31,524 nt of DNA, from positions 1 through 31,524 of the IMG/VR virus record IMGVR_UViG_3300044950_000323; one strand, given 5' to 3'. The notes below the pieces were generated by a model, which was not told where the DNA came from, searched no databases, and worked only from the letters and a program-made list of their open reading frames with translations. Origin of the DNA: a virus. The position numbers and the translations under genes are program-made. This document shows, piece after piece, positions 4,814 through 30,209 of this stretch. How positions within the stretch are numbered: the stretch's first letter is position 1; the number at the start of each line of letters is the position of its first letter.

Positions 4814-4856
4814 GGCCAGGCCCGATTGATCCCTGGCCATTCACTCACTAAGTGAG
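4814..4856 (+). other. Leader hairpin and palindrome
   Basis: GGCCAGG (4814-4820) and CCTGGCC (4832-4838) form a perfect 7-bp stem with an 11-base loop about 12 bases after the -10 box. It is followed by the palindrome CTCACT-A-AGTGAG (4844-4856), just upstream of the SD GAGGAG. No U-tract follows the stem, so it is not a classical terminator. It could be a 5' stabilising hairpin, and the palindrome could be a protein-binding site; both roles are inferred. Confidence 0.45.
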
Positions 4857-4867
4857 AGGAGAAGTAG

Positions 4868-5638
4868 ATGTCTGTTTTAGATCGTATCACCTCGGTGAAA
4901 GCTCTGCCAAAGGTGTTGTCCATGTTGGTTTATGGACGCTCCGGCACGGGCAAGACCACCTTCGGTGCTTCCTTCCCCACCCCAGCGCTGTTGATTGATA
5001 TCCGTGAAAAAGGTACCGATAGCATTGCTGATCGAGACGGTGTCGATGTAGTATCTATCAACACCTGGTCAGAGCTGGAGGAGGTCTTCTGGTACCTGAA
5101 GAAGGAGAAGAAGTACAAGTCGGTGATCTTGGATCAGATCAGTTCTATGCAGGATGTCTGTATGGAGCATGCCATGGCCGAGGAAGGCAAAGAGATTATG
5201 TCTCAGCGTCTTTGGGGCGTGGTGTCTGGCCTGATGAAGACCTGGCTGTTGAATTACCGTGACCTGGTGGAAGAGAACATCAACGTGATCTTCCTGGCCC
5301 ATGACCGTGCAAGTAAGGGTGAGTCAGGGGAAGACGACGATACCATTGATCCCCAGATCGGGGCTCGTTTGATGCCTTCAGTAGCGGGTATGCTTAATGG
5401 TGCGGTAAAGGCCATAGGCAATACCTATGTGAAGGAAGTCTTCCTGGAAGATAAGACTCGCAAGGTGGAATACTGTATGCGGATCGGTCCTCATGCATAC
5501 TACACCACGAAGATGCGTAACCCTCTGGGGACTACCATCCCCGAGTTCATTACCGACCCCACCTATGACAAGATCAATGAGTTGATGGCTCAAGGTGAAG
5601 TCAAACCCGTACGTCGTTCTGTTACTAAGGAGAAATAA
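4868..5638 (+). CDS. P-loop ATPase, Sak4-like (AAA_24 / RecA-like)
   Basis: 256 residues. Walker A is GRSGTGKT (23-30), preceded by a beta strand (SMLVYG); Walker B is VILD (86-89) followed by QISSM. The compact layout with an acidic, charge-rich middle (about 150-165) fits the phage Sak4-type single-strand annealing/recombination ATPases, which act with an ssDNA-binding partner. That partner is the next gene, 2 bases downstream with its own SD (AAGGAG). The start is supported by GAGGAG upstream of ATG. A general NTPase of other use cannot be ruled out, but the neighbourhood (exonuclease, ssDNA-binding protein) favours recombination. Confidence 0.83.
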   Translation: MSVLDRITSVKALPKVLSMLVYGRSGTGKTTFGASFPTPALLIDIREKGTDSIADRDGVDVVSINTWSELEEVFWYLKKEKKYKSVILDQISSMQDVCMEHAMAEEGKEIMSQRLWGVVSGLMKTWLLNYRDLVEENINVIFLAHDRASKGESGEDDDTIDPQIGARLMPSVAGMLNGAVKAIGNTYVKEVFLEDKTRKVEYCMRIGPHAYYTTKMRNPLGTTIPEFITDPTYDKINELMAQGEVKPVRRSVTKEK

Positions 5639-25954: not shown

Positions 25955-25969
25955 AACAACTCCTTGAAT

Positions 25970-25991
25970 TAGGGGAACCGAAGTTCCCCTA
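25970..25991 (-). other. C(UUCG)G-capped intergenic hairpin
   Basis: On the minus strand TAGGGGAAC (25991-25983) pairs with GTTCCCCTA (25978-25970), a perfect 9-bp stem capped by TTCG closed by C-G, the most stable RNA tetraloop class. It lies between the stop at 26002 and the SD AAGGAG of the 88-residue gene. No U-tract follows, so it may block 3'-5' decay or set an mRNA end rather than terminate. Confidence 0.7.
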
Positions 25992-26001
25992 TTCTAACTT
26001 A

Positions 26002-26442: not shown

Positions 26443-26489
26443 TTGAATCTCCTTAAAAGTCCGGGAGCCTAGACCCCCGGAGATTCAAA
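26442..26489 (-). promoter_or_regulatory. SD-hiding inverted repeat after the capsid gene
   Basis: TTTGAATCTCC (26489-26479 on the minus strand) is fully complementary to GGAGATTCAAA (26452-26442), which includes the SD core and the A of the next ATG. Between them TCCGGGGG (26481-26474) can pair with CTCCCGGA (26467-26460) and is followed by CTTTT, a weak terminator-like hairpin. The 5' arm begins 1 base after the capsid stop codon, so terminating ribosomes would cover it and free the SD. Confidence 0.7.
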
Positions 26490-26490
26490 A

Positions 26491-29527: not shown

Positions 29528-29935
29528 TTAAAGTATGTCGTCAAGTTCTTCAAACGCATCAGGATCGACGCGTGCAATGATTTCGTGGTCTTGGAAAAGG
29601 CAGAAGAGCGCTGTGTCTTCGGTACCTGGAATCTTGCGTTCGAAACGGTCACCACCGTACTTGGGTAAGCGGATATAGTGACCGGGACGCGCCCACACTC
29701 CCTCAGGCCAAAGATTACCGTTCTCACGGTTGCGGAAAGCGATGGGACCAATTTCAACGACCTTACCCAACTGGGTAGTGACCTTGTTGAACTGTTTGGT
29801 GTCCTCTACCAATACGATACCAGAGGTGGTCTTAGACCGCACGGTACGCAACTGGATAAGCACACGGGTACCTAACGGATGTACGCCGGGGTCGACTACG
29901 GGAAATGCGTCTTCTAGCTTTGATGCTGGAATCAT
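29528..29935 (-). CDS. GroES-like co-chaperonin, 135 aa
   Basis: Resembles GroES through HPLGTRVLIQL (19-29), the mobile-loop motif TSGIVL (37-42) that contacts GroEL, and a C-terminal strand (ALFCLF ... IIARVD) matching the GroES end. At 135 residues it is longer than GroES (about 97), with extra residues at the N-terminus and an insertion (NRENGNLWPEGVWARPGHYI) in the middle. Phage co-chaperonins such as T4 gp31 replace GroES for folding the capsid protein; the place directly before scaffold and capsid genes fits this. ATG 29935 has AGGAG 6 bases upstream; the leader folds into the structure at 29949-30018. Confidence 0.85.
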   Translation of the reverse strand: MIPASKLEDAFPVVDPGVHPLGTRVLIQLRTVRSKTTSGIVLVEDTKQFNKVTTQLGKVVEIGPIAFRNRENGNLWPEGVWARPGHYIRLPKYGGDRFERKIPGTEDTALFCLFQDHEIIARVDPDAFEELDDIL

Positions 29936-29948
29936 ACGATTCTCCTAA

Positions 29949-30018
29949 TGCTCCACTTTAAGGGGCTGTCTCGTGAAGCGTGGAGCACACTTCCTTCTCC
30001 GTCGAGAAGTGAGACAGC
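29949..30018 (-). ncRNA. Three-way-junction leader RNA with alternative helix
   Basis: On the minus strand GCTGTCTC (30018-30011) closes on GAGACAGC (29972-29965). Inside are two adjacent hairpins: CTTCTC/GAGAAG (30009-30004 / 29999-29994, loop GACG) and GAAGTGTG/CACGCTTC (29993-29986 / 29982-29975, loop CTC), the latter with one pair that is G-U only on this strand. Only 3 junction bases stay unpaired. TGCTCCAC (29987-29980), across the tip of the second hairpin, can instead pair with GTGGAGCA (29956-29949), 2 bases before the SD of the co-chaperonin gene. No U-tract. Function inferred. Confidence 0.6.
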
Positions 30019-30023
30019 TTGAC

Positions 30024-30209
30024 TTACTTGTCCATCTCTTCCAGTTTGTTAGTGAGTACATCTAGCGCAAAGCGAATACCTTCGGCCTTACCTTGTAGTT
30101 TACCTGCGTGATACAATGAGTCTAGGTTGGCTACAAGTAAGTCGTCCGACAGGTTCTTTAGCGCCAGTTGTAGCTCACCAATGTAAGTCAGGAAGAAGCG
30201 ATCAGACAT
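30024..30209 (-). CDS. Hypothetical protein, 61 aa
   Basis: Small helical protein (FFLTYIGELQLALKNLSDDL, then LQGKAEGIRFALDVLTNKLE), likely a helical hairpin or coiled coil. Function unknown. It begins in a TAATG overlap with the previous small gene and ends 6 bases before the structured leader of the co-chaperonin gene. Confidence 0.68.
   Translation of the reverse strand: MSDRFFLTYIGELQLALKNLSDDLLVANLDSLYHAGKLQGKAEGIRFALDVLTNKLEEMDK

Follow-up and report, generated by a model that had tools for sequence, protein, structure and literature searches.

What does the long gap in front of a phage groES-like gene contain, and could it take part in setting the output of that gene? Phage co-chaperonins redirect the host chaperonin to phage capsid proteins, the known case being gp31 of T4, and to our knowledge the dosing of co-chaperonins by phages has been little studied. 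The window, i.e. the whole stretch of DNA that was analysed, is a 31.5-kb phage record (IMG/VR virus record IMGVR_UViG_3300044950_000323, positions 1-31,524). The assignment of the downstream gene as a phage co-chaperonin was corroborated by its Pfam Cpn10 match, and head genes come after it. Among isolates, the capsid protein of the window is nearest to Caulobacter phages RW and GB2A (65% identity), and the host of the phage is probably alphaproteobacterial. The original prediction had described a compact three-way-junction RNA filling the intergenic space, and the leader RNA indeed occupies the 88-nt gap on the minus strand, with the small ORF on one side and the groES-like gene on the other. 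This gap is the longest in the minus-strand gene cluster, in which most other gaps measure 12 nt or less.

On the minus (coding) strand, positions 30018-29949 form a three-way junction with helices P1 (8 bp), P2 (6 bp) and P3 (6 bp), which is also the predicted minimum-energy fold of the coding-strand RNA (Table 1). The folding energy of the 141-nt stretch is -46 kcal/mol (z -3.6; 1/200 shuffles), and the 84-nt element alone has a z of -3.2. The predicted closing stem of 8 bp, the GACG hairpin of 6 bp and the three unpaired junction bases (A; AC) were thus recovered. The second hairpin is present as well, and the two apical pairs that bring it to 8 bp in the window fall outside the shared P3 of 6 bp; in the relatives its six conserved pairs enclose a loop of 6-9 nt. 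Three unpaired junction bases probably leave little room for a small-molecule pocket.

Table 1. Features of the groES leader region, in coordinates of the window.
Feature	Position	Strand	Remarks
groES-like co-chaperonin gene	29528..29935	(-)	135 aa; Pfam Cpn10, E 4.8e-9; PHROG 3188 co-chaperonin GroES
groES Shine-Dalgarno (SD) core GGAG	29942..29945	(-)	GGAGAATCG invariant among members
PK', pre-SD pseudoknot strand TGGAGCA	29949..29955	(-)	5-7 bp with L3 in every member
Linker	29956..29964	(-)	6-9 nt among members; without conserved SD pairing
P1 3' strand GAGACAGC	29965..29972	(-)	Partner 30011-30018
J31, junction AC	29973..29974	(-)	Members: AC 6, AU 2, GG 1
P3 hairpin GAAGTG-TGCTCCA-CGCTTC	29975..29993	(-)	6 bp in all members; both-side changes in 4 columns
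L3, pseudoknot loop strand TGCTCCA	29981..29987	(-)	Co-changes with 29949-29955
P2 hairpin CTTCTC-GACG-GAGAAG	29994..30009	(-)	Paired changes in 3 columns
J12, junction A	30010..30010	(-)	Invariant, 9/9 members
P1 5' strand GCTGTCTC	30011..30018	(-)	Partner 29965-29972; both-side changes in 5/8 columns
Small upstream ORF, 61 aa	30024..30209	(-)	From the ORF list; stop 5 nt before P1

Relatives were gathered by protein and DNA-pattern scans of viral contigs, which led to nine distinct leaders, all from metagenomic viral contigs (the window, L002, L005, L006, L007, L041, L048, L053 and L073). With the helices placed by hand, 179 of 179 pairs in P1, P2 and P3 are standard across the nine leaders; P1 of L005 contains a bulged T. 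A MAFFT alignment of the nine leaders (A3) was also made without fitting to the structure. There, 95.6% of the cells are paired compared to 75.5% in shuffles, and all 20 nested pairs are kept, 12 of them with changes on both sides, although counts of independent changes are overstated because the nine sequences are related. On none of five measures did any of 500 shuffles of A3 match the observed values. If the partners were slid by 1-3 columns as a control, pairing fell to 40-50%, and RNAalifold returned the identical 20 pairs unprompted. The paired changes in related phages, which the original prediction had named as its own check, were hence found.

The strand could be assigned as well, in agreement with the initial proposal. 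Eight of the 179 hand-placed pairs are G-U on the coding strand and A-C on the opposite strand, and as they are valid only on the coding strand they support an RNA of that strand. P1 and P3 are constant in length among the nine members, while the element as a whole measures 80-85 nt and does not vary in steps of 3, which excludes a coding explanation. Invariant bases concentrate at the junction, and the apex of P2 reads C-GACG-G in seven members and carries a CGGCC-type loop in the other two. Judged by this comparison, the three-way-junction leader is a real RNA element in which every helix is kept through paired changes, and these changes would be strong enough for a new RNA family.

The position of the third hairpin loop relative to the ribosome-binding site points to a further interaction. 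As had been noted for the window, TGCTCCAC at the tip of the second hairpin and GTGGAGCA in the pre-SD segment are exactly complementary, the match ending 3 nt before the SD GGAG (2 nt before AGGAG). The complementary 8-mer is mostly loop and not stem, because the two extra apical pairs of P3 are absent from the shared fold. Complementarity of 5-7 bp between the P3 loop and the pre-SD segment is present throughout the members, and despite differing sequence PK' ends 2-7 nt before the SD GGAG and 12-17 nt before the start codon (9/9). The L3/PK' versions are TGCTCCA/TGGAGCA, AGTCTCC/GGAGACT (and AGTCTTC/GGAGACT), CCCAGA/TCTGGG, TGCCCC/GGGGCA, GCCTC/GAGGC and CTCCAG/CTGGAG. Permuting the partners among the nine members, the observed L3-PK' score was reached in 15 of 200,000 cases; of the 720 possible assignments among the six distinct versions, the true one alone reaches it. 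The suggestion that two folds compete had to be given up. Pairing of the loop with the pre-SD segment leaves the 6 bp of P3 intact in all nine members, which makes the arrangement a pseudoknot rather than an alternative fold, and in the window this pairing would open just two apical base pairs. The L3-PK' pseudoknot is, on comparison of the members, a conserved part of the leader. The SD lies outside every conserved helix.

With a covariance model of the element (R1), each phage gave a single copy at 61-101 bits, located before groES in all cases, in records of up to 63 kb. Searching the viral contigs with R1 gave nothing away from groES, all other matches reaching 16 bits or less, and three looser DNA patterns applied to the viral contigs together with the covariance model gave groES leaders only, with other matches weak. 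No relatives of the element were found in genome_contigs. On the GroES tree the element is located in one clade with a few exceptions (L243-L245 with an SD hairpin, L003 with a long hairpin), and a single origin is weakly supported because several forks of this tree are open. In L008, of the same clade, the groES gene is kept with no leader structure evident, and even more remote groES genes (such as L027, L028 and L037) do not show a clear one either. We further observed that in L003 (4870-4967, + strand) an 11-bp hairpin replaces the junction. For a simplified form of the interaction in L003 (loop GGTCC/GGGCC with pre-SD sequence) no claim is made, given one distinct sequence and a chance of about 0.13.

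Another arrangement occurs in 11 sister or more distant phages including Caulobacter phage RW (L011, L012, L015, L016, L017, L020, L021, L025, L243, L245 and L194), where a 5-6-bp hairpin encloses the groES SD. It has 6 bp in 10 of these 11, compared to a hairpin of at least 6 bp around the SD in 18 of 125 other genes, a contrast which is a lead more than a test because these phages were chosen once the pattern had been noticed. The stems differ among the phages (such as ACTTCT-GAAGG-AGAAGT). The SD hairpin may represent a second, simpler leader type at the groES gene of related phages, and the presence of this different structure over the SD suggests lasting selection for control of groES at the RNA level.

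In a similar gene setting, the other members possess a comparable upstream ORF whose stop lies about 0-6 nt before P1. The exception is L002, in which a tRNA-Thr (TGT) gene (4835-4910, + strand) is found between the upstream ORF and the element, with 6 nt separating its end from P1. This intervening gene weakens the case for a strict coupling of translation to the upstream ORF, which we considered as well.

We compared the leader to known RNAs. Rfam 15 at the gathering score gave 0 matches over the whole window, with riboswitch, thermometer and leader classes included, which agrees with the earlier impression that no known riboswitch class fits. With cmscan and E up to 10, positions 29900-30060 gave a chance nuoG match only, and neither an xrRNA family nor Pseudomon-groES (RF01721). 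The latter is likewise a structured RNA before groES, but it is bacterial, and its covariance model gives no match here even when the threshold is relaxed. The open-access literature that was searched contained no description of a phage groES leader RNA. With the flaviviral xrRNA of mosquito-borne viruses the leader shares the order P1-P2-P3, the short junction linkers and the pairing of the P3 loop 3' of P1, that is, a three-way junction with L3-S4 pseudoknot topology, and the lengths of the junction linkers seem to fit the C family. In the xrRNA, however, two bases of the 5' end pair with the junction and close a ring, which by inspection is possible in about half of the members here. Because this ring-closing contact is not conserved, the groES leader was not filed as an xrRNA; it further differs in being a 5' leader beside an SD in a phage DNA genome and in having no Rfam match.

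Closer parallels in position are found among leader pseudoknots, as the element is conserved and located upstream of the ribosome-binding site of one gene. In the E. coli rpsO (S15) leader, too, the ribosome-binding site of the gene under control carries a pseudoknot, and this leader can serve as a model for the encounter of a folded leader with the 30S subunit, but its knot includes coding sequence, lacks a three-way junction and has a target other than phage groES. The leader of T4 gene 32 is likewise part of a phage mRNA, with a pseudoknot upstream of the start and one such gene per genome. That knot is simple and coaxial, lies 67 nt upstream of the start and nucleates gp32 binding, whereas the groES leader has a junction-based knot ending 12-17 nt before the start. 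The groES leader is apparently an undescribed RNA element of the leader-pseudoknot kind. In a 2010 review the T4-type gene 32 was described as possibly the only viral pseudoknot in translational autoregulation (PMC3014915), and the groES leader would be a further leader pseudoknot from a phage, with a three-way junction as its scaffold.

We propose, with a probability of about 0.58, that the element is a cis-acting leader RNA which controls groES translation via the pseudoknot beside the ribosome-binding site. Pseudoknots at ribosome sites have precedents as control points in E. coli rpsO (PMC3858243) and T4 gene 32 (PMC3014915); that of rpsO docks on the platform of the 30S subunit, and S1 assists in melting it (PMC3858243). 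In the groES leader the P1-closed junction would fold P3 back alongside P1, so that L3 could capture the segment directly upstream of the SD, and the resulting pseudoknot would lie at the border of the 30S footprint. Once folded, it might set the ease of 30S loading at the groES start, docking at the mRNA exit side and partly blocking it until the ribosome or another factor opens the structure. Alternatively, a phage or host protein bound to the conserved junction might lock the pseudoknot. The helices, the pseudoknot, the strand, the fixed pre-SD position and the restriction to groES are supported by comparison of the leaders; that the output is translation, we infer. We prefer a damping of groES translation to its raising because the sister lineages enclose the SD, and any blocking would be indirect because the SD is part of no conserved helix. 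The predicted SD accessibility, calculated with and without the pseudoknot imposed, changes in no consistent direction.

The covariation would be explained just as well by a role in RNA stability or processing. The junction and the pseudoknot could together form a mechanically stable knot that shields the mRNA 5' end, either stopping a 5'-to-3' exonuclease (RNase J) or preventing decay that depends on the 5' end, and the transcript of groES and the downstream head genes would thereby be stabilised. The topology of the leader, a three-way junction with a pseudoknot from L3 to downstream sequence, is shared with the flaviviral xrRNA, and for one such RNA a block of bacterial RNase J1 has been seen in vitro (PMC5760640). 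The order of the head genes after groES is in accordance with such a role, as are the Caulobacter phages as closest isolates by capsid protein and the tRNA-Thr gene of L002, since an RNA end at the element would result from maturation of the tRNA. We nevertheless consider it unlikely, although it is the main rival: the 5'-end-to-junction pairs by which an xrRNA closes its ring lack conservation here (pairing of bases upstream of P1 with J31 is possible in only about half of the members), the element keeps a fixed place with respect to the SD, for which a shield has no need, sister lineages carry SD hairpins instead, and no copy was found before other operons. That the leader should be an independently evolved DNA-phage counterpart of the flaviviral exonuclease-resistant RNAs, stopping host RNase J and at the same time presenting the ribosome-binding site of groES, would be a long shot; if true, decay intermediates would stay translatable.

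Control by a bound protein is a more specific version of the translational-leader explanation. Here a phage or host protein would lock the pseudoknot at the junction or the GACG loop, comparable to S15 on rpsO; GroES itself, a different protein of the phage or a ribosomal protein might play this part. The invariant junction bases and the near-invariant C-GACG-G apex go beyond what pairing alone requires, and rpsO and T4 gene 32 provide precedents; the other loop type in two of the nine members speaks against it, and we regard a protein operator as rather improbable. The original prediction of tuning by temperature or a ligand through two mutually exclusive folds fared worse. The loop is able to pair 4-5 bp with the SD in six of nine members, but in the remaining three (L006, L007 and L053) it manages just 3 bp. 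There the loop-PK' pairing is kept, the SD being invariant and the loop having followed the changes of the pre-SD segment; direct loop-SD pairing was consequently rejected. Minimum-energy folds make a fourth hairpin attractive, one formed by linker and SD that would kiss L3, yet the linker and the SD do not co-change (permutation p = 0.43, shuffled-linker p = 0.17). A thermometer would hold the SD in a weak helix kept among the members. As both pairings are unsupported and the conserved fold leaves the SD outside all helices, neither a thermometer nor a two-state switch has comparative support; nothing points to a ligand either, and a switch of these kinds appears very improbable. The members are related phages, so shared ancestry alone or inverted repeats at the DNA level might be invoked in place of any RNA function. 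This is hardly credible in view of the 12 pairs that change on both sides, the collapse of the slid controls, the G-U pairs that would be A-C on the other strand, and a loop-PK' match specific to each phage.

Additional repeats and helices were observed near other start sites and at the groES start itself. An inverted repeat GAATC-GTAT-GATTC (29929-29942, - strand) spans the groES start codon, and it is identical, without variation, in the junction-type members and L003. Both of its halves fit GANTC, the CcrM methylation motif of Alphaproteobacteria. In the 48-nt gap after the major capsid gene (26443-26490, - strand), TTTGAATCTCC ... GGAGATTCAAATG form an exact 11-bp helix that includes the SD of the next gene and the first base of its start codon and encircles a terminator-like hairpin; the same helix is not seen in the two relatives with an alignable next gene (L008, L053). 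A 47-nt gap (25955-26001, - strand) before the next gene contains an 8-bp UUCG-capped hairpin with outer pairing around the SD, and since this gap is also structured, structure is found at or near the SD in all three long gaps of the cluster.
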